Source of the DNA: Chitinophagales bacterium
Lineage (GTDB): Bacteria > Bacteroidota > Bacteroidia > Chitinophagales > UBA2359
Reading direction: 5' to 3'
Length of the DNA stretch: 41,787 bases
NCBI GenBank assembly: GCA_016787295.1
Contig: JAEUUX010000025.1
Span: 1 to 41,787 of the forward strand
In this document: in pieces, positions 3,179 to 41,787 of the stretch
Layout: each line of letters begins with the position of its first letter
Numbering within the stretch: position 1 is the stretch's first letter
Notes under the pieces: model-generated
Databases searched by the model: none
The model's input: the letters and a program-made list of their open reading frames with translations, nothing else
Told to the model about the DNA's origin: nothing
Program-made: the position numbers and the translations under genes

Positions 3179-4399
3179 ATGCCATACAAAAAAATCCAAG
3201 CCGATTATACCATCACTTGCGCCGACTCCGAACCTTTGGCACGTGCCATTGTGGTGGTCGATGATGGTGGCTATATCAAAGAAGTTGCTCCCGCCGACAC
3301 CTACAGCGACGTGACCAACTATAAAGGTGTTTTGTGTCCAGGATTTATCAACGCACACTGCCATTTAGAATTGTCTGCTCTACACCGCAAAATCCCTAAG
3401 CACATAGGTTTGCGAAAATTTGTAGACTATATGCGTTTGCGCCCAAAGCAGAACACCGACGAAATTACCCAAGCCATGCTTGCCGCCGAAGTGCAAATGT
3501 ATGCCAATGGTATTGTGGCAGTAGGAGACATCGCCAATACCACCGACTCTTTTGCACTCAAAGATGACAGTGATATGTACTACCACACCTTCGTCGAAAT
3601 CATGGGTTTTGACCCCAAAATAGCTGCTGATAGATTCAGAAAAGGCGTTATGATATTCGAAGAGATATCTCAAATCGGACGTTCGCATGGTAGCCTCACT
3701 CCACATGCACCATATACTGCTTCTTTGGAACTATTGTTGTTGATAAAAACCTACAACGAATTTAACGACACCCCTATAACCAGCATACACCACCAAGAAA
3801 GCCAAGCCGAAAATGAATTATTTATGAATGGCACAGGCGAGTGGGCAAACCTATATGCCGAATTGGGTATAGACATAAATACTTTTTTCCGACCATTGAG
3901 CGCCACTTCACTAGCATTTGTTTGGGCATATTTAGCGCGCGACACCAAAGTTCTTTTAGTTCACAATACTTTTTGCAACCAAGAAGACGCAGAGTGGCTC
4001 ATGACCGAAAGTCCTGAAACGCATTGGTGTTTTTGTCCCAACGCCAACTTATATATCGAAAATAGGTTGCCCAACTTCAATTATTTTTTACCCTATTCCG
4101 ACAATATTTGCCTTGGCACCGACAGCCTCGCCTCCAACGAACAACTATGTATTTTGGAAGAAATGAAAACCATTCAGCGCCATTATCCCAAAATTTCATT
4201 ACCTACCCTCGTACAATGGGGATGTAAGAACGGTGCTAAGTTCTTCGATTGGATACTATTGGGAACAATAGAAGAGGACAAACAACCGGGCATTTGCTTG
4301 ATAGAAAACCTCGATATCACACAACTCAAACTATTGCCCGATTCCCGCTCACGACTGCTCGTCGGAACAAGCAATAGTAACGCCATCTTAGAACCATAA
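3179..4399 (+). CDS. Amidohydrolase / deaminase of the ATZ/TRZ-cytosine deaminase type
   Basis: A 406-aa metal-dependent hydrolase of the amidohydrolase superfamily. Seen are the metal-binding HxH (His60, His62 in PGFINAHCHLELSA), TPHAPYTAS, a histidine-glutamate segment (SIHHQESQAENELF), LVHNTFC, and the late catalytic Asp315 in CLGTDSLASN. This order matches deaminases such as S-adenosylhomocysteine, guanine or aminodeoxyfutalosine deaminase. The substrate cannot be decided from sequence; aminodeoxyfutalosine (futalosine menaquinone pathway) is one possibility but no other mqn gene is in view. A small beta-sandwich at both ends is expected (N-terminal 1-55, C-terminal from about 370). It probably shares a transcript with fabH (31-base gap). 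Confidence 0.8.
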   Translation: MPYKKIQADYTITCADSEPLARAIVVVDDGGYIKEVAPADTYSDVTNYKGVLCPGFINAHCHLELSALHRKIPKHIGLRKFVDYMRLRPKQNTDEITQAMLAAEVQMYANGIVAVGDIANTTDSFALKDDSDMYYHTFVEIMGFDPKIAADRFRKGVMIFEEISQIGRSHGSLTPHAPYTASLELLLLIKTYNEFNDTPITSIHHQESQAENELFMNGTGEWANLYAELGIDINTFFRPLSATSLAFVWAYLARDTKVLLVHNTFCNQEDAEWLMTESPETHWCFCPNANLYIENRLPNFNYFLPYSDNICLGTDSLASNEQLCILEEMKTIQRHYPKISLPTLVQWGCKNGAKFFDWILLGTIEEDKQPGICLIENLDITQLKLLPDSRSRLLVGTSNSNAILEP

Positions 4400-4463
4400 C
4401 ACCATACTCAATAACACATAACCCAACCGTGTTGAAGTTTCCAGAATAGATAGAAAATATTTT

Positions 4464-4557
4464 TTTGGGTTTCCCTGCGGGTCGGGCTTTACAGGGCTAA
4501 CGGTGCAAGCACCAGCCTGCGGCTGCCCTTACAATCCCTAACGCGCTTCGCCATTCG
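4464..4557 (+). repeat. Dispersed ~94-bp intergenic repeat, copy 1
   Basis: About 94 bp starting ttgggtttccctgcgggtc and ending at gcttcgccattcg recur, nearly identical (about four substitutions and a 2-base indel), at 14048-14142. It is GC-rich compared with its surroundings and carries short inverted pieces (CCTGCGG, GGTGCAAGCACC). It lies at the 3' side of the amidohydrolase gene. This kind of CCCTGCGGGTCGGGCTTT...CAATCCCTAACGCG element is familiar from many Bacteroidota genomes; its function is unknown to me. Confidence 0.85.
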
Positions 4558-4585
4558 AACTATTATCCATATCTATTAGACACTA

Positions 4586-4635
4586 AACAGCACAAATCCC
4601 TCTTGCCTAAAACGGCAGGAGGGATTTGTGCTGTT
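4586..4635. terminator. Long hairpin between convergent genes (likely bidirectional terminator)
   Basis: A 22-bp stem (4586-4607 with 4614-4635; one T-G pair) closes a 6-base loop. It sits between the converging amidohydrolase (+) and the secreted protein ending at 4657 (-). There is no T tract on either side, so it departs from a textbook terminator. A role in termination or in 3'-end stabilisation is inferred from position only. Confidence 0.55.
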
Positions 4636-4656
4636 AGAAAAACTACCTTATTATTA

Positions 4657-5934
4657 CTATGTTTTTCGTGGTTTTTTGCGAGCAGCAGGAAACAAAACAT
4701 TGTTGAGAATGAGACGATAGCCCGGTGAATTGGGGTGTAATTCGAGTTTCGTTTCGGGATCTCCCACCATATGTTGATAGTCTTCGGGGTCGTGTCCGCC
4801 ATAGAACGTCCAAAAACCTTCGCCAAATTCGCCATGAATATAACGAGCTTCGTCGGCAGATTTATTTTCACCCATAATCAATACGTCGTCGCGGATATAT
4901 TTTTTGCGAAAAGCAGTTGTTTGTCCCATAAAACCTTTTACGATGTGTGTGTGGTCTTGGGTGAGCATAGACGGCACGGGATCCCATTTGGCAGAAAAAT
5001 CGAACAAAGTAAAATAGTCCGCATCTTTGGGAACAATGCGTGGCGTTGGAATATCTATATCAGCAAACTCATATTCGTTGGGATTGAGACTTAATTTATA
5101 GTCTTTAAATGCAAAACCCTGTAAATAGTTAAGTTTGCTCGACGGGTCGGCAGTCATGCCATCACCATCAAACATAGAGGCACAAATATCAATGCCTTCT
5201 GCTGCCAAAGCAATGTCATAACTATCGGTTGCCGAACACATCGCAAACATAAATCCACCACCTGCTACATACTCTTTGATTTTTTGAGCAACTGCTAATT
5301 TCATTTGCGACACCTTGCCAAAACCTAATTGTTTAGCTTTTTGTTCTTCGTACTGCACCTGTGCCACATACCAAGGCTGATTTCGATAGGAGGCATAAAA
5401 ACGTCCATATTGCCCTGTAAAATCTTCGTGATGAAGGTGTAACCAATCGTATTTAACAAGTCCGCTGTTCAACACTTCTTCGTCATACACCTTATCAAAA
5501 GGTATTTCGGCATATTCCAACACCAAAGTCACGGCATCGTCCCAAGGTAGGTTAGGGTGCGAAGGTTTGTTGGAGGGTGTATATACAGCAATTTTAGGTG
5601 GTTTGTCCAACTTTACGGCATCCATATTGGCTTCGGGCTGCGCAATTTCTGAAAGTATAGCACTATATTTGGCATCGGGCATCACCTCGTAACTAACGTT
5701 GCGAAGAAGGCATTCTTTTTCGATAGCGGCTGTATAGGGAATGCCAAAACTGCCGTCTTGATAGTTGAGCAACCAGTCTATTTTAAGACCATATGTAGCC
5801 AATGCTCTATAAGCAATACCATACGCCTTTAGATGGTCTTTTTGTTGGGGGTTCATCGGTATAAAAATGTAGGAGGCTTGTACAGCGAGACTGCACCACA
5901 ATAATAATCCTACTACCAAAACATTTTTTTTCAT
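4657..5934 (-). CDS. Secreted protein of the family often labelled 'asparagine synthetase B' in Bacteroidota
   Basis: A 425-aa protein with an N-terminal signal peptide (about residues 1-20, MKKNVLVVGLLLWCSLAVQA), then YIFIPMNPQQKDHLKAYGIAYRAL, a block typical of this Bacteroidota family. The middle (KIAVYTPSN, GGGFMFAMCSATDS) resembles a glutamine-amidotransferase-like or BPL_N-like fold. Later blocks are TPRIVPKDADYFTLFDFSAKWDPVPSML, MGENKS and GEGFWTFYGGHDPEDYQH. The name in databases looks like propagated misannotation: no AsnB synthetase ATP-pyrophosphatase loop or N-terminal Cys is visible. Its function is unknown; the GGHDPE ending suggests a ligand-binding or hydrolytic role in the periplasm. 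A TACTTTTG -7 box lies about 40 bases upstream. Confidence 0.7.
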   Translation of the reverse strand: MKKNVLVVGLLLWCSLAVQASYIFIPMNPQQKDHLKAYGIAYRALATYGLKIDWLLNYQDGSFGIPYTAAIEKECLLRNVSYEVMPDAKYSAILSEIAQPEANMDAVKLDKPPKIAVYTPSNKPSHPNLPWDDAVTLVLEYAEIPFDKVYDEEVLNSGLVKYDWLHLHHEDFTGQYGRFYASYRNQPWYVAQVQYEEQKAKQLGFGKVSQMKLAVAQKIKEYVAGGGFMFAMCSATDSYDIALAAEGIDICASMFDGDGMTADPSSKLNYLQGFAFKDYKLSLNPNEYEFADIDIPTPRIVPKDADYFTLFDFSAKWDPVPSMLTQDHTHIVKGFMGQTTAFRKKYIRDDVLIMGENKSADEARYIHGEFGEGFWTFYGGHDPEDYQHMVGDPETKLELHPNSPGYRLILNNVLFPAARKKPRKT

Positions 5935-5971
5935 GTTGATTTTAACTTGTTTTTTTTATTCATTTAAACGG

Positions 5972-5979
5972 CAAAAGTA
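5972..5979 (-). promoter_or_regulatory. Bacteroidota -7 box (TACTTTTG) for the 5934 gene
   Basis: Reading the minus strand, TACTTTTG matches the TAnnTTTG -7 consensus and lies 37 bases before the ATG at 5934. No good -33 TTG was found at the expected distance, so the promoter is partial. Confidence 0.5.
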
Positions 5980-6047
5980 AGGATTTGTTACTTAATAGCC
6001 TTTTTTTTAACAAGAATTAATTTTTCTGCTACTAAAACAGCATATTA

Positions 6048-6079
6048 TTTGGTGAATCTTGCTGAACTTATTACCTTTG
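6048..6079 (+). promoter_or_regulatory. Promoter of terC (TTTG-N20-TACCTTTG)
   Basis: TTTG at 6048-6051 and TACCTTTG at 6072-6079 are spaced by 20 bases, a full match to the Bacteroidota housekeeping promoter. It places the transcript start about 15 bases before the ATG at 6100. That leaves no room for a leader riboswitch such as the manganese type sometimes found ahead of terC-like genes. Confidence 0.8.
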
Positions 6080-6099
6080 CACCCAAAAAAACGATATTG

Positions 6100-6870
6100 A
6101 TGGAAAGCTTATTTACAGGAGCTGGTTTAGTTAGTATGCTTACCTTGACACTGATGGAAATCGTGTTGGGTATAGATAACTTAGTGTTTGTGTCTATTGT
6201 ATCAACCAAGTTGCCCAAAGAAGAGCAGAAAAAAGCGCAGCAAATTGGTTTGATATTAGCATTAGGCATCAGAATTGTGCTGTTGTTTGGCATTGGCTAT
6301 TTAGCCAGTTTGGAACAACCCGTTACAGGTGTCATACCAATTCTCAATGTTGCCCTAAGTTGGCGCGATATTATTTTGTTGGCGGGTGGTATCTTTTTGT
6401 TGTACAAAGCAACTTCCGAAATTCACCAAAAATTGGAAGGACACGAAGAAAATGTGCAGTTCCAAAAAGGCAAATCTGAATTGGGGAAAGTTATATTTGA
6501 AATAACTTTGCTCAACTTGGTGTTTTCTGTCGACTCCATTTTGACGGCAGTTGGTTTGGTGAAAGAAGTATCCATTATGATTATTGCTGTCGTAATTTCT
6601 ATGGTAGTGATGATTATATTTGTCAACAGCTTGAGTAATTTTATTCAACGTCACCCTACTGTTAAGATTTTGGGGCTTAGTTTCTTGATGTTGATTGGCG
6701 TGATGCTCATTACCGAAGGTTTACATAAACATGTCGAAAAAAGCTATTTCTATTTTGCTATTTTCTTCTCTTTGGCTATAGAAATGCTAAACATTCGTCT
6801 CAAAAGAGTAACAGACAAACCTGTCGACTTGCACGACGAATATGTAGACAATTCTATCATTCAGAAATAG
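6100..6870 (+). CDS. TerC-family integral membrane protein
   Basis: A 256-aa polytopic membrane protein. The family hallmarks are the two acidic membrane motifs, LMEIVLGIDNLVFVSIVS near the N-terminus and LVFSVDSILTAVG in the middle, whose aspartates are thought to bind metal. About seven hydrophobic segments are seen, with a charged loop (KLEGHEENVQFQKGKSELGK) between halves. Family members (TerC, Alx, MeeF/MeeY) have been linked to tellurite resistance and to manganese export, including metalation of secreted proteins. The frame is open upstream, but the promoter boxes at 6048-6079 place the start at the ATG at 6100. A strong terminator follows at 6926-6969. Confidence 0.92.
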   Translation: MESLFTGAGLVSMLTLTLMEIVLGIDNLVFVSIVSTKLPKEEQKKAQQIGLILALGIRIVLLFGIGYLASLEQPVTGVIPILNVALSWRDIILLAGGIFLLYKATSEIHQKLEGHEENVQFQKGKSELGKVIFEITLLNLVFSVDSILTAVGLVKEVSIMIIAVVISMVVMIIFVNSLSNFIQRHPTVKILGLSFLMLIGVMLITEGLHKHVEKSYFYFAIFFSLAIEMLNIRLKRVTDKPVDLHDEYVDNSIIQK

Positions 6871-6925
6871 TTGAATGGCAAAATTTGTGTTGGTCATCAA
6901 AACCAGATGAGTTATACCTATTAGG

Positions 6926-6969
6926 TATCGGCTATTTCTCCAAAGGTGAGAAGTAGCCGATATTTTTTT
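6926..6969 (+). terminator. terC terminator overlapping the 3' end of the GrpB gene
   Basis: A 15-bp stem (6926-6940 with 6948-6962, one G-T pair) with a 7-base loop is followed by seven Ts on the + strand. The GrpB gene on the other strand ends at 6932, so its last codons and stop are inside the hairpin. Confidence 0.85.
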
Positions 6970-7570
6970 GGTTGGTTGTTATTTTAGCTTCATACCAAGT
7001 CATCGCTTGTTCTTGTACATCAAGGATAAAACTTTCTTTGGCTTTGTTGTATTCCATCATGTTTTCCCACTCGCGTTCGCACAAAAGTTGTTTAAGGTCT
7101 TGGTATTGTTGTCGGACGTTTGGGTGTTGGCGCACATAGTCACGGAAAGCAATGTGGCGTTTCCAATGATAGGTGTCTTTGGGAATGATGTGGATATTTG
7201 ACAAGACATACTGGCTCAAATTGGGAGGCACTACATCGTATTCTCTAAAAACCTTTGGGAGGCTAAATGACAAAGACAATTCGGGTTTCAAGGCTACAAA
7301 AAAACGACGATACGGCATGATAGCGTTGTATTTTTCATAGTAAATAAAACCGTGTCGCAGCATCGGTTCGACGCACTTATCTAAATCTTCGGGTTGCTGC
7401 ACGCCTATCAAAATGTCAATAATAGGTTTGGCAGCCAATCCTATTACAGATGTGCTGCCAATATGTGCTATATTTGGTGACAAAGGAGCGAGAATTGGCT
7501 CAAGTTGTTGGCACAATTGGTCAAAAACCGTGTTCCACTCGTCTTGGTAGGGAGATAGCGTAATTTTCAT
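6932..7570 (-). CDS. GrpB family protein (UPF0157, nucleotidyltransferase-like)
   Basis: A 212-aa protein matching GrpB/UPF0157. Visible blocks are the opening YQDEWNTVFDQL, AHIGSTSVIGLAAKPIIDILIGV (nucleotidyltransferase-fold GS...KPxxDI motif), the arginine-rich YRRFFVAL, and NIHIIPKDTYHWKRHIAFRDYVRQHP. The family shares the beta-polymerase-like nucleotidyltransferase fold, but no cellular reaction is established. The last 10 or so residues coincide with the terC terminator and may be poorly conserved. It begins 10 bases after the LysM gene stop on the same strand, so the two are probably co-transcribed. Confidence 0.9.
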   Translation of the reverse strand: MKITLSPYQDEWNTVFDQLCQQLEPILAPLSPNIAHIGSTSVIGLAAKPIIDILIGVQQPEDLDKCVEPMLRHGFIYYEKYNAIMPYRRFFVALKPELSLSFSLPKVFREYDVVPPNLSQYVLSNIHIIPKDTYHWKRHIAFRDYVRQHPNVRQQYQDLKQLLCEREWENMMEYNKAKESFILDVQEQAMTWYEAKITTNQKNIGYFSPLEK

Positions 7571-7580
7571 TATGTATCGG

Positions 7581-8639
7581 TTACTTCTTTTTGCGTGGCA
7601 GATAGTATTGCCAAGTCAAACGGCTGCGCTGTTGGTCTCCTAACCCTAATCGTTTAGCAACAGTAGAATTAAATCTAATACCGATGTCTTCTGTTGTCAC
7701 ATTGTCGGGCAATTTTTGTACCACTTTTACAAATTCTGTTTTACCGTTTTGGGGATTGGTGATTTTGATAACGGTTTGTATGGGAGCAGTTCGGTGGAAA
7801 CAATAGAGACCACCACTGCCTGCGTCGTCGAACCAGTCTCCAATGCCTTCTTCGCTATGCAGTTTATTATTAGCTGTCGTATCGTTTCGGAGCTGCATAA
7901 ATTGTCCACGATGGTCATTGATCAGTTCCACTCTGCTCATTTTTTTGGGTGTGCTGGAGGCTTCGCCGCTGGGTAGTAACCACATAACAACCACCTCTTG
8001 TCCTGGTTTGATGTCCAAACTGCTGAAGTTGTTCCATTTTTTTAGGTCATTGAGGCTTTGGTCATAGTAGCGAGCCAACGCAAATAGATTTTCACCCGAA
8101 GCAACGATGTGTTTAATCGGTTTTAGTTTACTAAGCGGCACAGTATCGGTCAAACCCAATTTTTTGCTAGTGTCTGTCGGAATTAGCATGGGTGCGCCTT
8201 TCATAATAGGTTTTTTTGCCTCCGTTTGGCTGACCTTCATCTCTTGGGCAACGGTTTCCTTCAATGCTGTTGAGATGGGGGTTTCTTTTTCTTTGGCAAT
8301 AAGCGTTTTTTTAGACGTGAAACCTTCTTTTTTCGAAGCAATTTGATCCGAAACAGTTATTTGAATAGCTTCGGGTGGTGGTGTAATGGCGGCGGTAGTG
8401 TCGGTTTTTTCGGCGGGAGGAGCAGGGAGCAATGGCACGGTAAGCACCTCTCCGATGTGTATGCTTGTTCCCACAATTTGGGGATTAAGGCGTTTGAGTT
8501 CGGCGATGGTGGTACGATGTTGTAGCGCTACGCCATACAAAGTTTCGCCTTTCTGTACTTTATATTTACCCGTTTCGTTTGCCCAAGTCCATTGTCCAAT
8601 GGTGAGCGCCAAGAGTAATAATCCTATTTTTTTCATCAT
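7581..8639 (-). CDS. Secreted LysM protein with C-terminal double-psi beta-barrel-like domain
   Basis: About 352 aa: signal peptide (1-20, MMKKIGLLLLALTIGQWTWA), LysM domain 1 (about 25-70, YKVQKGETLYGVAL...), a Thr/Ala/Lys-rich linker, LysM domain 2 (about 176-221, HIVASGENLFALAR...). A C-terminal region (about 265-352) with GGLYCFHRTAP, VIKITNPQNGKTEFVKVVQKLPD and a late R/L-rich end resembles the RlpA-like double-psi barrel paired with LysM in Bacteroidota. It likely binds peptidoglycan in the periplasm. The frame extends ten codons upstream, but the -7 box at 8678-8685 would put the transcript start next to that first ATG; the MMKKIG start at 8639 also begins the signal peptide properly. 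Whether it is a lytic enzyme is not known. Confidence 0.85.
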   Translation of the reverse strand: MMKKIGLLLLALTIGQWTWANETGKYKVQKGETLYGVALQHRTTIAELKRLNPQIVGTSIHIGEVLTVPLLPAPPAEKTDTTAAITPPPEAIQITVSDQIASKKEGFTSKKTLIAKEKETPISTALKETVAQEMKVSQTEAKKPIMKGAPMLIPTDTSKKLGLTDTVPLSKLKPIKHIVASGENLFALARYYDQSLNDLKKWNNFSSLDIKPGQEVVVMWLLPSGEASSTPKKMSRVELINDHRGQFMQLRNDTTANNKLHSEEGIGDWFDDAGSGGLYCFHRTAPIQTVIKITNPQNGKTEFVKVVQKLPDNVTTEDIGIRFNSTVAKRLGLGDQQRSRLTWQYYLPRKKK

Positions 8640-8677
8640 GGATAGGTATGTTTTAGTGGATAGCAAGATTTTTTTTG

Positions 8678-8685
8678 CAAAAGTA
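8678..8685 (-). promoter_or_regulatory. -7 box (TACTTTTG) for the LysM-GrpB operon
   Basis: On the minus strand TACTTTTG lies about 39 bases before the MMKK start at 8639. No clear -33 TTG was seen. It supports the downstream start choice. Confidence 0.5.
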
Positions 8686-8710
8686 CGAAAAAAATCACGT
8701 TTTTGACTAT

Positions 8711-9352
8711 TTAGTGACTATTTTTTTGTAATATCCACACATAATAGTCAAAGAAAAAAGCTTGTTGATAGTTGATTTCTTGCACAACATGAAGGTCGTT
8801 GGGTAGCTGTTGTCGATACTCTGCCAAGTCAAATTGGTGAGGATGTAGCGCATCTAAGGGGAGGAGTCGGAATAGGTGTTTAAAGAAGTTGTGGTTATGT
8901 ACATCAGTACTTAGCACCAATGTGGCATTGGGTCGCAAAGCTGCGCTCAAGCGTGCCAATGCCAACGGTAAATCACTAACATGGTTGATGGCATTGATGC
9001 AAAAAATATAGTCAAAACTTTGTTGATAGTTGATGTCCTCCAAACGGCAATCTTCAAAACGGACATGTGGATAGGCAGCCGTAGTGAAGTGAGGAGACAA
9101 TTGCTCGGCATAATGCGCCAAAAGCGGGTCTATAGCAACGACTTTTTGTTGTTCCAAGATGGTGAAAATGCCCGCAGGACCGCAACCTGCATCAAGCACA
9201 TCGCAAATGGGAGGCAGTTGGAGTGCCAAATTTTGCAAAAAGTTTTGCCAATAACGACGTTTCCACACCAAATAATCAGCGGGAGATTTTCGGCGAAGGT
9301 AGTTTTTCCACCACAATAGCTCGAGTTGTTGTGCTAATTTCCATTTAAGCAT
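8711..9352 (-). CDS. Class I SAM-dependent methyltransferase
   Basis: A 213-aa protein with the SAM-binding motif I DAGCGPAG at residues 54-61, motif II VVAIDP, an acidic LEDINY segment and a motif IV-like FDYIFCINAINHV. The N-terminal basic/aromatic helix (WWKNYLRRKSPADYLVWKRRYW) may be an interaction region. This architecture is that of small-molecule or lipid Methyltransf_11-type enzymes; the substrate is not predictable. It is a single-gene unit: a -7 box lies 35-43 bases upstream, and a divergent promoter serves the ATPase gene on the other strand. Confidence 0.85.
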   Translation of the reverse strand: MLKWKLAQQLELLWWKNYLRRKSPADYLVWKRRYWQNFLQNLALQLPPICDVLDAGCGPAGIFTILEQQKVVAIDPLLAHYAEQLSPHFTTAAYPHVRFEDCRLEDINYQQSFDYIFCINAINHVSDLPLALARLSAALRPNATLVLSTDVHNHNFFKHLFRLLPLDALHPHQFDLAEYRQQLPNDLHVVQEINYQQAFFFDYYVWILQKNSH

Positions 9353-9387
9353 ACCAAATTTGTGCGAAAAAAAGGTGAATGGGCGGA

Positions 9388-9395
9388 CAAAGGTA
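9388..9395 (-). promoter_or_regulatory. -7 box (TACCTTTG) for the methyltransferase gene
   Basis: TACCTTTG on the minus strand, 36 bases before the ATG at 9352, in the 175-base divergent intergenic region. No convincing -33 TTG. Confidence 0.5.
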
Positions 9396-9457
9396 CGGAA
9401 ATTAGGTGGGGATTTTATAGCGTGATATTGGTAATTTTAAAAAACTTTTGCAATTTG

Positions 9458-9489
9458 TTTGTTTTTGTCATGTTTAAATGGTAATTTTG
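9458..9489 (+). promoter_or_regulatory. Promoter of the ATPase-RloB pair (TTTG-N20-TAATTTTG)
   Basis: TTTG at 9458-9461 and TAATTTTG at 9482-9489 with 20-base spacing. The predicted transcript start near 9496 lies after the most upstream possible start codon (9459), which is therefore rejected in favour of the ATG at 9528. Confidence 0.75.
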
Positions 9490-9527
9490 CGAAAAAAATA
9501 CAAATAAACCCAATAAACAACTGCTCT

Positions 9528-10847
9528 ATGTTTATAGAATTTAGTTTTGCCAACTTTAGGTCTTACAAAGATTTGCAAACTTTGAGTATGATAGCAGCCG
9601 ATATAACTTCTAATCCATCTATCATTGACCAAAACAATACTTTTGCAGCCACACCCAAATTGCGCCTATTGCATAGCAAAGCGATTTATGGTGCGAATGC
9701 GAGCGGTAAAAGCAATATTGTCAAAGCATTGTCTGTTTTTATTGCGTTGGTGCGGCATTCGGTTAAAGATGATAATTTGTTACAAAAAACGATAGATGTA
9801 TTTCAACTCAATACTCAAACCGTTCACGAACCTGCTTTTTTTCAGTTAATATTTTTGCACGAAGGTGCGGTTTTTCGATATGGTTTTGAGGTGCGACAAC
9901 AACAAATCATTACAGAATGGTTGTTTGGCGCACCCAACGGACGCGAAACTACTTATTTTTTGCGTGAAAACAAAGATGTTGATGTTAAACCCATCTTTAA
10001 AGGGGCGAAAAGATTTGCTACTTTGAACAAAGAAAATAACGAAATTTTTAGGGATAATGCACTTTTCTTAACGGCTGTGGCAACAATGGGCAACAAAATA
10101 GCTGCTTCGATGGTCAATGCCATTGCTGCTATTAACCTTATATCGGGTTTGCAGTATTCGATGATTCAAAAGATACTGGAACAAGAATTGCAAAATAACC
10201 AAATAAAAGAAGCCATTATTGAGTTATTGAAAAATGCAGATATCGATATGCAAGACTTACACCTACAGCCTGCTAATATTGGTGAAATGGAATTGTCGGT
10301 GGCGCTCAAAGATTGGCTTATTGCACAAGAGGTTAATATGACAAACAACATCATGTCGTCGCGTTATCAATATGACGAGGCAGGTAATCAGACAGCAACT
10401 ATCTCCAAAGATATAGAAGAATGGGAGTCGGAAGGCACCAAAAAAATGCTTTATCTTAGTCCTATTTTGCTTCAAACCCTAACCGAAGGCAAAGTGCTGG
10501 TGATAGATGAGTTTGATGCTCGTTTGCACCCCCAACTCACCCATGCTATTATTGCCCTATTTCATGCACCAGCAACCAATCCACATCATGCTCAATTGAT
10601 TTTTGTGACTCATGACACTTCTTTTCTGAAGCCACATCTATTGCGACGCGACCAAATTTGTTTTGTCGATAAAAACAGTTTTGGACAATCGCACCTCAAC
10701 ACCTTAGTAGAATTCAAAGGTGTGCGAAACGATGCTTTATATGACAAACAGTATTTGGAAGGAGCTTATGGTGCTATTCCTTTTGTAAAGAAAATGAGCC
10801 AGTTTTTTACTGAAAAAATCGACCAGCATGAACAACAAAACCAATAG
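9528..10847 (+). CDS. AAA-family ATPase (AbiLi / RloA-like), partner of RloB protein
   Basis: About 439 aa with all ATPase parts: an N-terminal IEFSFANFRSYKDLQTLS beta-strand block, Walker A GANASGKS at 55-62, a long helical insertion, the Walker B VLVIDEFDARLHPQL (Asp327, Glu328) and the switch histidine His362 in LIFVTHDTSFLK. This is the SMC/OLD-like family (AAA_15/AAA_21) often found with a second nuclease-like gene. Its stop overlaps the start of the RloB gene by 20 bases, so the two are translated together. Such ATPase-RloB pairs resemble the AbiL abortive-infection system. The defence role is inferred from family and context, not shown here. It has its own promoter. Confidence 0.85.
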   Translation: MFIEFSFANFRSYKDLQTLSMIAADITSNPSIIDQNNTFAATPKLRLLHSKAIYGANASGKSNIVKALSVFIALVRHSVKDDNLLQKTIDVFQLNTQTVHEPAFFQLIFLHEGAVFRYGFEVRQQQIITEWLFGAPNGRETTYFLRENKDVDVKPIFKGAKRFATLNKENNEIFRDNALFLTAVATMGNKIAASMVNAIAAINLISGLQYSMIQKILEQELQNNQIKEAIIELLKNADIDMQDLHLQPANIGEMELSVALKDWLIAQEVNMTNNIMSSRYQYDEAGNQTATISKDIEEWESEGTKKMLYLSPILLQTLTEGKVLVIDEFDARLHPQLTHAIIALFHAPATNPHHAQLIFVTHDTSFLKPHLLRRDQICFVDKNSFGQSHLNTLVEFKGVRNDALYDKQYLEGAYGAIPFVKKMSQFFTEKIDQHEQQNQ

Positions 10848-11541
10848 GCACACAAACTCTAACAAGGCGTGGAATAGGAGAGGGGCTAATAAACAAACAG
10901 CCTATCACATCGAAAGTATCCCTTTGCAAAAGCGTTTTTTAATTGTTTGTGAAGGCGAAACAGAGGCAGATTATTTCAATGCCTTTCCTGTGGTTTCTGC
11001 CCAAGTAGAAGCTGTTGCCAAAGGACGTTCAAGAACCGCCTTAGTAGAAGTAGCACGCAAAATGAGTGCCAAATATCCTGAACATGAAATTTGGGTGGTG
11101 TTTGACCTCGATTTTTATGTAGATGCAACCAACCAAAGCAACTATGATTGCCGCGACGATTTTGATGAAGCAGTCTTTTTAGCCGATGCCTATCAGATAA
11201 CAGTAGCCTATAGCAACGATGCCTTTGAGTTGTGGTTTTTGCTGCATTTTGAGCATTGTAATGCTGCTGTATTGCGCCAATATTTTTATGAACGCCTTAG
11301 CGAAATATGGAAAAATGATTTGCGCGGAAAAAGCTATGATAGTGATAAAGCTGGTGGTAAAACCGCTTTTTTTCGCCAACACAATTACTACCGCTTATTG
11401 CCACAACAACGAAAAGCTATCCAACGTGCCAAAAAATTGCATGAACAACACCAACTTAAACACCACTTACCTTCTATGCAAAATCCCTGCACAACTGTCT
11501 ATCAATTGGTAGAAGCACTTAATCAATACCTCAAACGATAA
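10828..11541 (+). CDS. RloB-like protein (AbiLii-type, TOPRIM-like)
   Basis: A 237-aa protein. Residues 38-50 (LIVCEGETEADYF) and VVFDLDFY at 91-97 form the EGExE ... DxD pair typical of RloB/TOPRIM-like nucleases, with Glu42, Asp93 and Asp95 as likely metal ligands. SNDAFELWFLLHF (129-141) is the RloB family hallmark. A basic N-terminal leader (about 1-30) precedes the fold. The gene overlaps the ATPase gene by 20 bases. In known pairs the ATPase is thought to control a toxic nuclease activity. Unlike the broken TOPRIM gene at 608-951, all acidic residues are kept. The target is unknown. Confidence 0.85.
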   Translation: MNNKTNRHTNSNKAWNRRGANKQTAYHIESIPLQKRFLIVCEGETEADYFNAFPVVSAQVEAVAKGRSRTALVEVARKMSAKYPEHEIWVVFDLDFYVDATNQSNYDCRDDFDEAVFLADAYQITVAYSNDAFELWFLLHFEHCNAAVLRQYFYERLSEIWKNDLRGKSYDSDKAGGKTAFFRQHNYYRLLPQQRKAIQRAKKLHEQHQLKHHLPSMQNPCTTVYQLVEALNQYLKR

Positions 11542-11594
11542 CAACAAAATTTATCTTTTTAACACAATTTATACCAAATATCCCCAAAAAAACG

Positions 11595-11602
11595 TACCTT
11601 TG
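11595..11602 (+). promoter_or_regulatory. -7 box (TACCTTTG) before the 11644 gene
   Basis: TACCTTTG ends 41 bases before the ATG at 11644, in the gap after the RloB gene; the -33 element is weak (a TTTA near 11568). It indicates that the secreted protein has its own promoter rather than reading through from the defence-like pair. Confidence 0.55.
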
Positions 11603-11643
11603 CTGCAATTTTTAGCTTTTAGAGCCAAAAAACTATTAATTAC

Positions 11644-12369
11644 ATGAAAACGATTCAACTATTATTGTGTATTATGCTTCTAAGTCAAACCACTATGGCA
11701 CAAACTGCCGATGATGTTATTGCCAAATACCTGCAAGCTATTGGTGGTAAAGAAAATTTACAACAAATCCAAGTGCTGCGCCAAACAGGAATCGCCAAGG
11801 CATGGCAAGATATTCCTTTTAATCTAACCATCACTCGCAAAGGTAAAAGCTATCAGGAGTCTACGATGCAAAACAAAAAAATTGTACGAGCTTTTGACGG
11901 CACAACCGCATGGGGCAACCAACCATGGACAGGGCGCGACATCAATGTTAAATTTGATGAAGACGAAACCAAAAACATTCGTTTTGCTGCCGATATAGAT
12001 TTTGCCTTTGTTGATTATGCCCAAAAAGGTAGTAGTATGCGCTATATAGGAGAAGAAGATGTTGATGGAGCATTGGCATACCACCTACAACTCACCACAC
12101 GCGAGGGCGATACGCATGACTATTTTTTTGACAAAGACCTCTATCTCCTTGTCAAGCACAAAGCCCGAATCAAACGCAAAGACGGTTCGGAGCAAAACTA
12201 CGAAGAGTATTATAGCGCCTATAAACCTGTAGGCAAATTGCTGCTGCCCCACGATTTGGAAAGCCGAACAGTAGAACAAGGTGAAGAATATAATCAATTC
12301 ACCAAAATCAAAACCTACGAAATTAATCCGACTGTTGAAGATAGTTTGTTTATCATGCCTGCTAAATAG
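11644..12369 (+). CDS. Secreted LolA-fold (outer-membrane lipoprotein-sorting-like) protein
   Basis: A 241-aa exported protein with a signal peptide (1-19, MKTIQLLLCIMLLSQTTMA). The opening TADDVIAKYLQAIGGKENL... and later GTTAWGNQPWTG and DYFFDKDLYLLVKHKARIKRKDGSEQNYEEYYSAYKPVGKLLLPHDLESR are typical of the 'outer membrane lipoprotein-sorting protein' family in Bacteroidota, a LolA/LppX-like fold that may carry hydrophobic ligands. It differs from the canonical LolA at 25774. Being single-gene with its own -7 box, its role cannot be refined from neighbours. Confidence 0.75.
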   Translation: MKTIQLLLCIMLLSQTTMAQTADDVIAKYLQAIGGKENLQQIQVLRQTGIAKAWQDIPFNLTITRKGKSYQESTMQNKKIVRAFDGTTAWGNQPWTGRDINVKFDEDETKNIRFAADIDFAFVDYAQKGSSMRYIGEEDVDGALAYHLQLTTREGDTHDYFFDKDLYLLVKHKARIKRKDGSEQNYEEYYSAYKPVGKLLLPHDLESRTVEQGEEYNQFTKIKTYEINPTVEDSLFIMPAK

Positions 12370-12394
12370 TGGGCAGTTTCCTTATCTCAATATC

Positions 12395-12435
12395 TAAAAA
12401 ACACCCCTTCGGAAGTTCAGTCTTCTGAAGGGGTG
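12395..12435 (-). terminator. Terminator between convergent genes (T tract on minus strand)
   Basis: A 14-bp stem (12402-12415 with 12422-12435, one G-T pair) with a 6-base loop; the minus strand has six Ts after it (12396-12401 as As). It would end the HerA-like transcript and could also serve the + gene ending at 12369. Confidence 0.8.
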
Positions 12436-12465
12436 AAATAGTATATAGTTGTAAAGGAAATAAAA

Positions 12466-13983
12466 TTAACGCCTTTTGCCTCCCAATCCAAACACGCCCA
12501 ACAAACTACGTGTTACCTCTTTCACTAAGGTATTACCTAATTGTTTAGCCATTGGATTTTTAGAGATAGTCTCCAGCCAACCCGGTTCTTCTTTTTCTTT
12601 CTTAGCGGGTTTTTGGGTTTCGGGAGTTGGTGTTGGCTCGTTGATTTTGGCAGAAAGCATTTCGAAAGCACTTTCGCGGTCGATAACTTGGTTGTATTTA
12701 TTCACCAAATTCGATTGTGCGTTAATGTCATTAATTTCGTCGGCAGACAAAACGTCCATACGTGATTTGGGCGGACACATCATCGTGTGTGCTAAAGGTG
12801 TGGGTGTACCTTTTTCGCTCAACACCGTCACCAATGCCTCGCCAATACCCAAGGTTGTCAGTAGTTCATCGGTATCATAAAATTCTGACATGGGATAATT
12901 TTCTGCGGCGGCTTTAATGTCTTTGCGGTCTTTGGCAGTAAAGGCTCGGAGGGCATGTTGTATTTTCATGCCCAATTGTCCCAATACTTCGTTAGGAATA
13001 TCTGCCGGATTTTGTGTACAAAAATAGATACCTACACCTTTGGAACGAATCAACTTGATAATCGTTTCTATTTGGTTCAACAAAGCTTTGCTGGCTTCGT
13101 TAAAAATCAAGTGAGCTTCGTCGATAAACAACACTAATTTGGGGCGGTCAGCATCGCCAATTTCGGGAAAAGTGGCATATATTTCTGCCAATAATGACAG
13201 CATGAACGTAGAAAACAACTTAGGACGGTCTTGAATATCGGTCAAGCGCAAGATATTCACCATGCCCATGCCTACAGAATCTTTTCGCAATAAATCTTGT
13301 ACATCAAAGGAACGTTCGCCAAAAAACAATTCGGCTCCTTGCTGTTCCAATTCAATGATTTTTCGCAAAATAGTGCTGGTAGAAGCAGCCGACACCTTAC
13401 CGTATTGTCGTTCGATGATTTCGCTACCTTCGTTCGTTACCCACTGCAAGGCTTGTTTAAGGTCTTTGAGGTCGAGCAGCGGCAAACCGTTGTCATCACA
13501 ATACTTAAACAACAAAGCAATGACACCACTTTGTGTATCGTTCAGTTCGAGGATTTTAGACAGCAAAACAGGACCAAACTCTATGACAGTTGCCCGCAAA
13601 CGAGCGCCTTTTTCGTTAGACAAAGACAAAAATTCTATGGGATAGGATTGGGATTCAAAAGGAATGTGCAGTTTTTGGCAGCGTTCCATCGTGCGTGGGC
13701 TGCTATCACCACACGCCCCGATGCCGCTAAGGTCGCCTTTGATGTCCATCAACAGAACAGGAATACCTTTTTCGGACAAAGCACCTGCTAAGGACTGCAA
13801 AGTTTTGGTTTTACCCGTTCCTGTTGCTCCTGCGATTAGTCCGTGTCGGCTAAGGGTTTTGAGCGGCACACTAATGACCGCATCGGGAAGCACCTCGCCC
13901 TGTAGCATAGCTTTACCCAATAAAATAGACTCGCCTTTGGTGGTATAACCGTTTTGTATGGTGGTCAGAAATTTTTCTTTCAT
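12466..13983 (-). CDS. HerA-like / DUF853 (YjgR-type) ATPase
   Basis: About 505 aa. Walker A GATGTGKT at 52-59, GIPVLLMDIKGDLSGIG, and Walker B LVLFIDEAHLIF at 283-294 place it in the HerA/FtsK-like AAA group called DUF853 or YjgR; the GVGIYFCTQNPADIPNEVLGQLGMKIQHALRAFTAKD block is diagnostic. The C-terminal 430-480 region is a charged, proline-rich linker. Function in the cell is undefined; HerA relatives are DNA translocases, but YjgR acts alone without NurA. The frame could begin at a TTG two codons upstream, but the ATG at 13983 is preferred. A repeat element lies between it and the transporter gene upstream. Confidence 0.9.
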   Translation of the reverse strand: MKEKFLTTIQNGYTTKGESILLGKAMLQGEVLPDAVISVPLKTLSRHGLIAGATGTGKTKTLQSLAGALSEKGIPVLLMDIKGDLSGIGACGDSSPRTMERCQKLHIPFESQSYPIEFLSLSNEKGARLRATVIEFGPVLLSKILELNDTQSGVIALLFKYCDDNGLPLLDLKDLKQALQWVTNEGSEIIERQYGKVSAASTSTILRKIIELEQQGAELFFGERSFDVQDLLRKDSVGMGMVNILRLTDIQDRPKLFSTFMLSLLAEIYATFPEIGDADRPKLVLFIDEAHLIFNEASKALLNQIETIIKLIRSKGVGIYFCTQNPADIPNEVLGQLGMKIQHALRAFTAKDRKDIKAAAENYPMSEFYDTDELLTTLGIGEALVTVLSEKGTPTPLAHTMMCPPKSRMDVLSADEINDINAQSNLVNKYNQVIDRESAFEMLSAKINEPTPTPETQKPAKKEKEEPGWLETISKNPMAKQLGNTLVKEVTRSLLGVFGLGGKRR

Positions 13984-37623: not shown

Positions 37624-37690
37624 AACGAAACAATGTTTAGTTTAAGTAATTTTTATGTAAAAAAGGAATGTTTACAAGGTATATGAGCCT

Positions 37691-37698
37691 CAAAAGTA
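37691..37698 (-). promoter_or_regulatory. -7 box (TACTTTTG) for the T9SS cargo gene
   Basis: Minus-strand TACTTTTG lies 68 bases before the ATG at 37623 and 34 bases from the 43-bp array. The -33 TTG was not clear. The array's nearest unit would therefore lie over or just upstream of the -33 region. Confidence 0.45.
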
Positions 37699-37731
37699 CA
37701 ACATATTAATGTAACCACTCGTATGAATTGG

Positions 37732-37938
37732 CATTTGGTTAACAATAATAAGGTTTTACACAGTGTGTATACCCCATTTGGTTAACAATAATAAGGTTTT
37801 ACACAGTGTGTATACCCCATTTGGTTAACAATAATAGGGTTTCGCACAGTGTGTATACCCCATTTGGTTAACAATAATAGGGTTTTACACAGTGTGTATA
37901 CCCCATTTGGTTAACAATAATAGGGTTTCGCACAGTGT
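37732..37938. repeat. Tandem array of a 43-bp palindrome-rich unit, about 4.8 copies
   Basis: Units start at 37732, 37775, 37818, 37861 and 37904 with exact 43-base period; the last unit is cut short at 37938. Each unit has GTTAAC, the interrupted palindrome ACACA-G-TGTGT (ACACAGTGTGT), and, in units 1-4, GTATAC. The only variation is in the aaggttttac / agggtttcgc segment. There are no unique spacers and no cas genes. It fills the region upstream of the T9SS gene promoter and could bind a regulator or be a neutral minisatellite. Confidence 0.9.
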
Positions 37939-37964
37939 AAAACATACACCCGCAACAAAAAATC

Positions 37965-38820
37965 CATTAACAATTAACAATTAACCATTAACAATTAAAC
38001 CCAACCCTGAAAGGGTGACAAGTTTATAGAAAAGGTATATAAAGAAAAATCGCCCAAACCCTGAAAGGGTGACACCAATCCACCACCCACCAACCCACCA
38101 CAACAAAATATTGACCATTATTTTTGAGGCAAAAACAACATTCCGCATAATGCGCGGGCTATTTTTCATTCACCCAAATAACATTCCACATAATGCGCGG
38201 GCTATTTTTCATTTACCCAAATAATATTCCACACAACGCAAACCCCACACCCCCAAAAAAAATAATTAACAATTAACCATTAACAATTAACAATTAAAAA
38301 CCCCTCTTCATCACACAACAATGTTAATATCACCCTTTCAGGGTTTTATAAAATGATGGGACAATGGCTGATGGCTATAAACTTGTCACCCCGTTGGGGT
38401 TAGCAATACGATAATAATATTGTCTGCCAACAAAAACAATATTCCACATAATGCGCGGGATATGTTTCATTCACCCAAATAACATTCCACACAACACAAA
38501 CCCCACACCCAAAATAAAAAAAGCATTAACCATTAACCATTAACCATTAACAATTAAACCCAACCCTGAAAGGGTGACAAGTTTATAGAAAAGGTATATA
38601 AAGAAAAATCGCCCAAACCCTGAAAGGGTGACACCAATCCACCACCCACCAACCCACCACAACAAAATATTGATCATTATTTTTGGAGCAAAAATAACAT
38701 TCCACATAATGCCCAACATACCTTTCATTCACCCAAACAACATTCCACACAACGCAAACCCCACACCCCCCAAAAAAACAATTAACAATTAACCATTAAC
38801 AATTAACAATTAAAAACCCC
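37965..38820. repeat. Repeat island: TTAAC blocks, ACCCT-GAA-AGGGT palindromes and ATTCCACATAATGCGCGGG modules
   Basis: This 0.9 kb has no convincing gene. TTAAC/ATTAA low-complexity blocks lie at 37965-37998, 38268-38300, 38524-38558 and 38779-38813. Between them are paired palindromes ACCCT-GAA-AGGGT (38003-38073, again 38562-38632), an inverted single copy (38331-38346), a related ACCCC-GTT-GGGGT (38388-38400), and about four copies of an ATTCCACATAATGC-CGGG...CACCCAAA module (from about 38138, 38181, 38440 and 38696). Segment 37981-38125 is repeated at 38540-38684 with one mismatch (offset 559). The design is that of REP-like dispersed elements of Bacteroidota. A Y1-type RAYT transposase is not in the window. 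Confidence 0.85.
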
Positions 38821-38868
38821 TCTTCTTGCTTCACTCATCGCCACATCTATCACCCAAAACCCAATATT

Positions 38869-41787
38869 ATGACACGACTATTGTTCTGTATTATTATTGT
38901 ATGCTGTGGAGCAGCTACTACATTGTCGGCGCAGCAAAAGTATTTGCCGAAAGTTAACCAAGCACCAAGCGAAGATGCTATGCAGCATTTTTGGGAAACA
39001 TACAATCTTTTGGAAGACACTATTAAGGATCCTGTTTATTGGTATGAAATAATAACAGATGACTATGAAAAAATTATCAATGCTCGCAGCGCAGTTATAT
39101 TCCCTGCTATTAGGGCAAAAAAAAGCGCCTCCTACCTTTGGAAAGAAGCCTATACGGGTTATCGAAAACCTGTTTACAAAAAAATGGCAATACAAATTTT
39201 AGCGCAAGAAGGCTATGAAGAATTGGGTGCTATTAAAGCTCCATTAGATGGTATAAAGCAGCCACTTAATCCACACCCAATTGAGAAAGTACATTGGATA
39301 AAAAGAAAAGTGCCAACAAGCAATATTACAGGTAATTGCTATGACTATCAATTGGAAATAGACACTTGTTTTTGGCAAAAACAGTTAGTAAAAGACTACG
39401 GAGGTGGTATAAGGTATACACAAAATAGGAATGACTCTGTGTATGTCACCAAAAAATATCCCGATATATATACCACACAAACTGTTTGGCGCATAGATTC
39501 TGCGAAAACAGCTAATCAACCTCTGCGCAAGAAACTATTTAAAATAGCTGCTCAATATAAAAATTATAGTCAAACTATTGTTACAAATCCTGCTACCTAC
39601 CTACACATAGTGCCAGAGGATAATTATCGGTATTCAATTGTATATAGACAGAGATGGCATAACTACTATACTTACTACAATGTAAATAGTGGAATAGAAA
39701 ATTGTATTCCCATTTATCCTTGGTTATATGCCAACGCATCTCGTTACAGTAATTTTAATTTCTGTACACGCTATCCACAATCTGTACCGCATCATTACGG
39801 CAAAAAAGAACAAAGGTTAACCCATTGGAAACCCAAATATGAGACGCTGGCAGACTATAAAATACCTTCGAACTTATCGTGGAATTTTTCTAATTACTAT
39901 AATAGTAAAAAGAGGCTACCTCCACCACCGTACTTTTATAAGCACCCTCAACCTATTGCGCTACTACAAGAGGCATTGCAAAAGAAGTATTACTATGTGG
40001 GACCTATCAATAATGTATTGGATACCAATACCCAAACAGCTTTGCGGAAATACCAAGAGCAGCACGATACACAAAGCGACTATGTATCAAAACAAACATT
40101 ACAAGCATTGGAGATTAACCCGTATGATTATAAACCACCTAAAGAACCCGTATTTGCTATCAAACAAGTTGCTAACCCCACTGATTTGAAGCGGATTACG
40201 GAGGCATACAACCAAATTGTTAAAGAACATTTATGTGGAGACGATACCATCAAAATGTATAAGAAGGCATTAGACAACAAAACACTTCAAATACAAAAAG
40301 CGTATACCGATGCTACTTTCAAAGGAGGAGTAAGTGCATGGAGAGAATACCTACAACAGTATCCACCAGATTTTAGTCATGTAGCGGACAAGACCATTTC
40401 GGGTAGAATAAGTGTGTCTGGCGTTGTGAACAAACAAGGTTATTTTATTGCGCCACGTATTATAACAGGTGTGTCGTCTGATATGAACGAAGCAGTATTG
40501 GAATGGTGCTATCGAATGCCCCGCTGGCAGCCTGCCAAACAAGCAGGTCGCAAAGTGATCAAAAGGGTAAATTTTGATGTATACTATACTTGGAACTCTG
40601 AAAGGCAAGAGCCAAGTTTCAGTTTTGATAGGACACAAAGGTATCAATTCTTAGTTGAGAACGAATTTATGAGCAGCGCGCATTTTCCAACTAATCCTAT
40701 ACATCTACAGAAAAGCCCTAAATATATGCAGTCTGCTGAACAACATTCCAATCGTATACAAGAGTCTTATGTGACTGACAAACTTACGGAAGAATTAATC
40801 AACTACCACAACTATGACTACCCTATTCCCGCTGATACAGCCGACTTTAGCATTACAACTGAACTGCAATCTTGCCCTTGGAACTCGCGCCATGACTTGT
40901 TATTGGTAGGTATACAGAGCAAAAAAATAGATTTTTCGAATGTTCCGCCCCATAATTGGGTATTCATTGAAGGGGATAGCCATTCATGGAAAGGAAGATA
41001 TTCATTAAAAGAATCGGCGCTCAACTTGTTAAAAGATAATATGCGCCCACAAGATAGGCTGCATATTGTTCGCAACTTTTGGAAAAAAGAACAAAAATAC
41101 TATGCTTTCGATGAGTATAACAAAAGGCAAGAATGCAATACCTATACCGATTCTATGTACCAAGACATTAATTTTTCTGCGCCAACGCTATACACAGCTT
41201 ATCAACTTGCCCAAAAACATTTTGTGAAAGGAGGTAACAATAGGATAATACTGTTTACGGGTTGTCGCTATGAGCTTGGAATAGGTGATAATGACACATC
41301 TTGGTCATACATAGCAGCTCAAGCGCAAGATGGTATTGCTTTTTACGTGTATACTATGGACTACTACCAACTTGATGAGGCTATGTTGCAAAAATGCGCG
41401 GCTATGGGCAAAGGTGTGTTTCATCATACCAACAACCAAGCAGATGCTAATAAACAGTTATTAAGGAAATGGTGGAACGAAAACTATATTGTTGCACAAA
41501 ATGCCAGTATGAATATTACTTTCAATCCCCAATATATCAAAGCGTATAGACCTATTGGCTATGAAAATCGCCAAGATGCGCATGATGAATCTACTAATGA
41601 TGTGCAAGGCGAAGGCGAAATTCCCGCCAATCATACCATTACTGTACTATACGAAATCATACGCGACACTGTGCAAATGCCTATTTCAAGCAGCAAAATA
41701 CTATCCGACACCACAGCACAATCCACATACGACGGCACCAAAGCGGCTATGTTCGATGTCCAACTGACCTATCAAAAACCCCATGAC
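38869..41787 (+). CDS. Mosaic secreted protein: PG-binding-like, TonB-C-like and degenerate YfbK/vWA domain (3' end beyond window)
   Basis: Open from the ATG at 38869 to the window end, 973 codons with no stop. Signal peptide about 1-22 (MTRLLFCIIIVCCGAATTLS). Residues about 25-350 are not recognised. About 358-414 matches a peptidoglycan-binding-1 fold (IALLQEALQKKYYYVGPINNV, LRKYQEQH, SKQTLQALEI). About 505-575 resembles the TonB C-terminal domain (SGRISVSGVVNKQGYF, EAVLEWCYRMPRWQPAKQAGR). From DYPIP (650) onward it aligns with YfbK-like vWA proteins: ACPWN becomes SCPWNSRHDL, then RPQDRLHIV, FVKGGNNRIILF, the IGYENR block and ANHTITVLYE. The MIDAS DxSxS of YfbK (VFLIDVSGSM) reads WVFIEGDSHSW, aligned Asp lost (Gly702), and TDG reads TGC (797-799). 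It ends before the YfbK-type C-terminal domain. Function unknown. Confidence 0.8.
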   Translation, partial: MTRLLFCIIIVCCGAATTLSAQQKYLPKVNQAPSEDAMQHFWETYNLLEDTIKDPVYWYEIITDDYEKIINARSAVIFPAIRAKKSASYLWKEAYTGYRKPVYKKMAIQILAQEGYEELGAIKAPLDGIKQPLNPHPIEKVHWIKRKVPTSNITGNCYDYQLEIDTCFWQKQLVKDYGGGIRYTQNRNDSVYVTKKYPDIYTTQTVWRIDSAKTANQPLRKKLFKIAAQYKNYSQTIVTNPATYLHIVPEDNYRYSIVYRQRWHNYYTYYNVNSGIENCIPIYPWLYANASRYSNFNFCTRYPQSVPHHYGKKEQRLTHWKPKYETLADYKIPSNLSWNFSNYYNSKKRLPPPPYFYKHPQPIALLQEALQKKYYYVGPINNVLDTNTQTALRKYQEQHDTQSDYVSKQTLQALEINPYDYKPPKEPVFAIKQVANPTDLKRITEAYNQIVKEHLCGDDTIKMYKKALDNKTLQIQKAYTDATFKGGVSAWREYLQQYPPDFSHVADKTISGRISVSGVVNKQGYFIAPRIITGVSSDMNEAVLEWCYRMPRWQPAKQAGRKVIKRVNFDVYYTWNSERQEPSFSFDRTQRYQFLVENEFMSSAHFPTNPIHLQKSPKYMQSAEQHSNRIQESYVTDKLTEELINYHNYDYPIPADTADFSITTELQSCPWNSRHDLLLVGIQSKKIDFSNVPPHNWVFIEGDSHSWKGRYSLKESALNLLKDNMRPQDRLHIVRNFWKKEQKYYAFDEYNKRQECNTYTDSMYQDINFSAPTLYTAYQLAQKHFVKGGNNRIILFTGCRYELGIGDNDTSWSYIAAQAQDGIAFYVYTMDYYQLDEAMLQKCAAMGKGVFHHTNNQADANKQLLRKWWNENYIVAQNASMNITFNPQYIKAYRPIGYENRQDAHDESTNDVQGEGEIPANHTITVLYEIIRDTVQMPISSSKILSDTTAQSTYDGTKAAMFDVQLTYQKPHD

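Follow-up and report, generated by a model that had tools for sequence, protein, structure and literature searches.

Long YfbK-type proteins of a Chitinophagales bacterium in which the vWA metal site has been lost

Introduction

Proteins with a YfbK-type vWA domain are widespread in bacterial envelopes, and their function is unknown. In its canonical form the YfbK module consists of three parts (PF12450, VWA and PF12034), is preceded by a short N-terminus and carries the five ligands of the MIDAS metal site, the classical set known from Mfa5 of P. gingivalis (PMC7835359). The likeness of YfbK to ArnB and to Sec23/24 has been reported (PMC12852372). In a 2025 analysis it was proposed that some vWA proteins act as force transducers; these proteins of the envelope end in a YfbK-like vWA, have an inner-membrane helix (SHLS motif or transpore helix) and are encoded next to genes for TolQ-like motors, and one subfamily reportedly occurs for the most part as heterologous pairs (PMC12204202).

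The DNA analysed here (the window) comprises contig JAEUUX010000025.1 (C23; 41,787 nt) in full; it belongs to assembly GCA_016787295.1, from a Chitinophagales bacterium with a genome of 5.4 Mb in 296 contigs, 98% complete. Its T9SS genes and the YfbK homologues nearest to it among named genomes likewise point to the Bacteroidota. Gene A, at its right end, and a second gene, B, share with canonical YfbK proteins, such as one of 543 aa encoded on another contig of this genome (C246), the three-part module and the blocks TEExIN, CPWN, GGNNR and YRxIGYENR, but they have no MIDAS and are longer at the N-terminus by about 600 residues. A third long protein, encoded on C286, shows the same module order as A and B and differs from them by an intact MIDAS. 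In contrast to the vWA force transducers, A and B have a signal of the cleavable type and neither the SxHxLxS motif nor a TM helix; ten window ORFs on the left side of A included no match to a TolQ/ExbB-like motor family, and the right side is occupied by a giant protein with a T9SS type B sorting domain. On these criteria A and B are not placed in the force transducer class.

Domain Organization of Gene A

An earlier sequence-only reading of this DNA had described a single open frame of 973 codons, and both its coordinates and its codon count proved exact (Table 1). The frame is cut by the contig end and the full-length product would have about 1056 aa. By inspection, the protein starts with a hydrophobic stretch followed by LSA/QQK, where the protein sequence of paralogue B is identical. 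Inspection of A, B and the long C286 paralogue revealed neither a lipobox nor a further TM-like hydrophobic segment past the signal, on which grounds the product of gene A is predicted to be a soluble periplasmic protein.

Table 1. Features of gene A and its flanks in the window.
Feature	Positions	Strand	Basis or remark
Intergenic repeat island	37624..38868	.	between divergent T9SS-A adhesin gene and gene A
Gene A	38869..41787	+	973 open codons, cut by contig end; about 83 more codons on C24 or C231
Sec-type signal peptide, residues 1-21	38869..38931	+	by inspection
N-terminal region, residues about 22-300	38932..39768	+	divergent relative of YETVTEQ-type repeat region
PG_binding_1 (PF01471), residues 362-414	39952..40110	+	Pfam 29.1 bits, cut-off 23
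TonB_C-like (PF03544), residues 507-572	40387..40584	+	Pfam 21.4 bits, below cut-off 24.6
PF12450 vWF_A (YfbK N-terminal part), residues 640-678	40786..40902	+	42.7 bits, cut-off 25
vWA Rossmann core without MIDAS, residues about 692-872	40942..41484	+	alignment and predicted structure
Site corresponding to MIDAS motif 1 (homologues: DxSxS), G702-D-S-H-S706	40972..40986	+	55-homologue alignment
Position of TDG motif, T797-G-C799	41257..41265	+	55-homologue alignment
YfbK_C (PF12034), residues 874-972	41488..41784	+	64.1 bits, cut-off 25; cut by contig end
141-bp stretch identical to C24 end (paralogue B)	41647..41787	+	site of assembly break

The three modules recognised from sequence alone (PG-binding, TonB_C and YfbK) were recovered by profile searches, the first and the last over their cut-offs. 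Since PF12450 and PF12034 follow each other in the right order and both exceed the threshold, the protein belongs to the YfbK family. The TonB_C match, which falls short in A, exceeds the cut-off at the aligned place in B (26.3 bits) and in the C286 paralogue (50.6 bits), which argues that the module of A is real but eroded. The PG_binding_1 domain of B scores 16.5 bits, under the cut-off; the apparent erosion of this domain in B and of TonB_C in A counts against the explanation favoured below. The generic VWA Pfam family gave no match in A, while PF00092 scores 77.1 bits in the C286 paralogue. A search of NCBIfam with the A protein returned weak PG-domain and chance matches, all below cut-off, and a sequence search of the PDB nothing significant. 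The T9SS sorting domains (TIGR04183/TIGR04131) have no match in the 973 codons, and YfbK_C is the only Pfam match in the tail carried by C231, so that no T9SS sorting tail was detected on A or B. A TonB anchor was likewise sought in both proteins: they contain no SxHxLxS, and hydrophobicity is limited to the signal-peptide stretch.

Loss of the Metal Site

When 55 homologues from named genomes were aligned with the YfbK module of A, their five MIDAS columns proved almost invariant (Asp in 55/55, Ser in 54/55, Ser in 54/55, Thr in 55/55 and Asp in 55/55). Gene A has G702, S704 and S706, no residue aligned with the Thr, and G798; gene B shows a different pattern (D, G, N, a gap and A). All five ligands are kept in the C286 paralogue and in the canonical YfbK of C246. 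The residues that had been read at the two motif positions of A were exactly right, and so was the view that the classical Mg site is gone, both Asp positions being Gly in columns that are near-invariant among the homologues. A register error was considered and rejected, as the flanking columns line up in the 55 homologues; the metal site of A is lost and not misaligned. The conserved scaffold blocks quoted in the same reading are real, but over the whole module A retains only 58 of 134 near-invariant YfbK columns and B 64, compared with 125 in the C286 paralogue and 129 in canonical YfbK.

DxSxS and TDG were then looked for in over 100 frames that had been recovered by searching the family, the order and the named genomes, and in about 50 further frames taken from 395 genomes sampled across the phylum and chosen by their likeness to the degenerate profile of A and B. 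Both motifs are present wherever the region is covered, with a single exception, a YfbK gene in a draft of Bacteroides clarus (locus L098, 3960-4400), in which motif 1 is deleted and the Thr and TDG are intact. This candidate for a second MIDAS loss was rejected, since the deletion, with an in-frame stop just upstream, suggests that the gene is broken or its sequence wrong. A literature search for MIDAS-less bacterial vWA proteins retrieved nothing relevant.

It could be argued that the vWA domains of A and B still bind metal through altered ligands, given that A retains both Ser of DxSxS and has D703 beside the lost Asp, and that B retains the first Asp. This is unlikely: the TDG Asp and the Thr-loop motif, invariant in the 55 homologues, are gone from both copies, and the residual ligands differ between A and B. 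The structural model described below, with its low pLDDT in these loops, favours neither view.

Predicted Structure of the YfbK Module

Residues 580-973 of A were modelled with AlphaFold2 using the 55 homologues (mean pLDDT 73.1, pTM 0.71). The model shows a Rossmann core with beta-rich flanking parts and is weak in the loops around the lost metal site (model residues 173-189, pLDDT below 50). Its best Foldseek matches are the ArnB paralogue VWA2 (5a8j, E 2.9e-8), an inter-alpha-inhibitor heavy chain and a vWA protein of C. acidiphila (4fx5), in agreement with the likeness of YfbK reported earlier. Structure prediction and the Foldseek search, both proposed in the sequence-only reading, thus predict that the vWA Rossmann core is still present in spite of the loss of the MIDAS.

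Rpn10 and TFIIH p44/Ssl1 are vWA scaffolds that work without a classical MIDAS. When aligned with VIA-align, the model of A matched Rpn10 with a Z score of 15.6 (3.0 A over 163 residues), and Rpn10 and p44/Ssl1 together gave Z of about 15 and 2.6-3.1 A over about 160 residues, values tied with many others among the matches listed. Like ArnB and Sec23/24, these vWA domains match the predicted fold of A; they are mostly intracellular and share with it about 10-16% identity. By analogy, Rpn10 and p44 would offer a precedent for a working metal-free vWA and not evidence of relationship.

Paralogue B and the Contig Break

The last 139 bp of C23 are identical to the first 139 bp of two other contigs, C24 and C231. 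Extension of the window past position 41787, suggested in the earlier reading, completes gene A on C24 and reveals the second MIDAS-less gene. C24 (3832 bp) opens with the final 129 codons of an A-type gene, of which 83 lie beyond the window, and then carries gene B, whose product is 42% identical to that of A over 973 residues. At the start of C231 lies a near-identical A-type tail, with 13 differences in 391 bp, and further on (locus L019, 698-11080) a gene on the opposite strand, convergent with A and B, for a giant repeat protein of at least 3460 aa with the T9SS type B sorting domain. Since C24 is linked by 139-bp overlaps to both C23 and C231, a tandem order of A and B can be inferred; the simplest and most likely path runs from A to B to C231, with two genes of about 1056 codons each, the alternative being that C24 is a separate circle.

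The window ends within a repeat common to three contigs, and the mosaic or the pair could in principle be an artefact of assembly. This is extremely improbable, as the break affects only the 3' end of A, the contig overlaps are exact and the same module order is found in A, in B and in a strongly diverged paralogue of 1079 aa on another contig.

That protein, encoded on C286 (P0003), displays the order signal, repeat region, PG_binding_1, TonB_C and YfbK, as in A, with DVSGSM, the Thr motif and TDG intact, and shows 28-29% identity with A and B. In the region 3679-13216 of locus L007 its gene is followed on the same strand by genes for PorG (140.7 bits, cut-off 130), undecaprenyl diphosphate synthase (uppS), a T9SS-A protein and an OmpA protein that resembles CHU_0125/PorE, under both cut-offs, a neighbourhood that may represent an envelope/T9SS context. 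A further paralogue, of 414 aa on C67 (locus L020, 4402-5646), corresponds to the N-terminal region only; PG, TonB_C and YfbK modules were not found in it, and it has no Pfam match.

Divergence, Selection and Probable Gene Conversion

Outside the homogenised tracts, A and B differ with dS 1.62 and dN 0.66 (NG86), values near saturation that make the ratio a rough one. All gaps between them are in frame and both frames are free of stops. In a simulation of neutral drift, in which one lineage was carried to half the observed A-B distance in 200 runs, each lineage acquired a mean of about 31 stops and a minimum of 18, against 0 observed. Within the first 31 codons the two genes show silent differences and no amino-acid differences (dN 0).

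Selection keeps the frames of A and B open, and the excess of dS over dN, the in-frame gaps and the lack of stops argue against pseudogenes. According to the opposite interpretation, A and B would be relaxed, non-functional duplicates on their way to becoming pseudogenes. They do have exceptionally long branches (9.0 for A and 3.2 for B, the median being 0.6), they have lost over half of the near-invariant YfbK columns and, as duplicated copies, they adjoin repeats; long branches and lost columns would also be expected under relaxed constraint. Decay is nevertheless hardly probable, considering the intact frames, for which about 31 stops per lineage would be expected under neutrality, the dS well over dN and a signal peptide without amino-acid change despite silent changes. 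The placement of A and B in the tree was discarded as unusable, both branches being too long.

Three tracts are unusually alike between the two genes: the signal peptide with the bases upstream of it, codons 640-690, which include the PF12450 segment, and everything 3' of about codon 922. In codons 926-973 dS falls to 0.03, for which recent gene conversion is the natural reading. In codons 640-690 it is 0.44, possibly reflecting an older conversion event or strong constraint. The combination of identical ends and highly diverged middles, together with T9SS-sorted proteins flanking the genes on both sides, could also indicate a diversifying pair of envelope cassettes, in which divergence and end conversion result from selection for variability under pressure from phages or grazers. 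Selection of this kind is decidedly unlikely, as A and B have no T9SS sorting tail, conserved blocks occur within the YfbK module as well and dN lies below dS overall.

Distribution of the Architecture

The sequence-only reading knew of no protein in which these modules occur together, and this part of it was not supported as it stood: the family contains two-module fusions, and the long form with all modules and an intact MIDAS is encoded in this very genome. In the family, the repeat region (YETVTEQ-like units) and PG_binding_1 make up separate proteins of about 320 aa, which resemble the N-terminal half of A but end after the PG domain, without TonB_C or YfbK. Of 20 genomes of the family, 18 have matches to the repeat region or its PG domain, and other members of the order show the combination as well. 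Fusions of the repeat region with YfbK occur in two genomes (G001 and G007; 774 and 799 aa) and a fusion of TonB_C with YfbK in another (G012; 849 aa). These represent two-module subsets of the architecture of A, none of them with the PG domain and TonB_C together, and unlike A they all have an intact MIDAS. Other YfbK modules follow, by inspection, anti-sigma-like and carboxypeptidase-regulatory-like N-termini.

Among the genomes searched, the complete module order was found in three genes, all of this genome. Order-wide searches (396 genomes each, at the thresholds used) gave no second full architecture, a soft absence in that the set included no other species of the window's genus and many incomplete genomes. 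In a scan of named genomes for the whole architecture, the best 80 loci were ordinary YfbK proteins that match the intact paralogue only from about residue 497-635 on. The modules and their pairwise fusions are therefore ordinary, and the full chain is a local elaboration, a case in which repeat region, PG_binding, TonB_C and YfbK modules have been shuffled within one Bacteroidota family. What stands out is that two copies have lost the metal site and are nevertheless maintained.

Other Bacteroidota repeatedly have two YfbK genes in tandem that differ in length and both keep the MIDAS (five loci, L216, L217, L218, L219 and L220), which by analogy makes a pairing of A with B plausible rather than demonstrated.

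A Possible Metal-Independent Scaffold

The best explanation of these data, held with slightly better than even confidence, is that A and B are a pair of secreted, wall-associated, metal-independent vWA scaffolds derived from a long YfbK protein. The signal peptide would export them to the periplasm, where the repeat region and PG_binding_1 may hold them at peptidoglycan. The TonB_C-like domain could offer a surface for beta-strand addition; as there is no membrane anchor, ExbBD drive of this domain is unlikely and passive binding seems the more probable role. The MIDAS-less vWA core would bind a protein partner via its fold, as a protein-protein scaffold, and A and B would most likely belong to an envelope complex in which they pair heterologously, either together or each with the intact paralogue. 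They would have arisen when the long form with the intact MIDAS, or a close relative, was duplicated, a descent suggested by the shared architecture only, and then diverged very fast while gene conversion exchanged short tracts between them.

The domain anatomy, the missing ligands of both copies, their paralogy, the selection on their frames and the homogenised tracts are observed, while a periplasmic location, binding to the wall, independence from metal and pairing are inferred. The idea of a repurposed scaffold, presumably independent of metal, was put forward in the sequence-only reading and has become likelier now that a second MIDAS-less copy is known and neither frame contains a stop, and the proposed tie to the cell wall extends as far as the PG_binding_1 match in A.

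A more far-reaching and rather doubtful proposal is that A and B form a heterologous, MIDAS-dead vWA pair that binds the intact paralogue or each other at peptidoglycan, as an envelope counterpart of the eukaryotic metal-free vWA scaffolds, possibly serving the T9SS/envelope machinery whose genes neighbour the intact paralogue (PorG, PorE-like). A MIDAS-less pair and an intact paralogue in one genome provide a test of whether partner binding needs the MIDAS or the fold alone.

Surroundings of Gene A

To the left of A, beyond the intergenic repeat island, lies a divergent gene for a T9SS type A protein, an adhesin to which the earlier reading had linked gene A as a guess. The link is still a guess, and the island in between holds a repeat that is dispersed over the genome: the 18-mer AACCCTGAAAGGGTGACA, found at 38003-38633, has 59 exact sites genome-wide on many contigs, and the same pattern read backwards has 0. 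Parts of the island recur on C24, between the A-type tail and gene B. Upstream of the divergent adhesin gene, at 37732-37946, a 43-bp direct repeat (CATTTGGTTAACAATAATA...) is also present in five copies.
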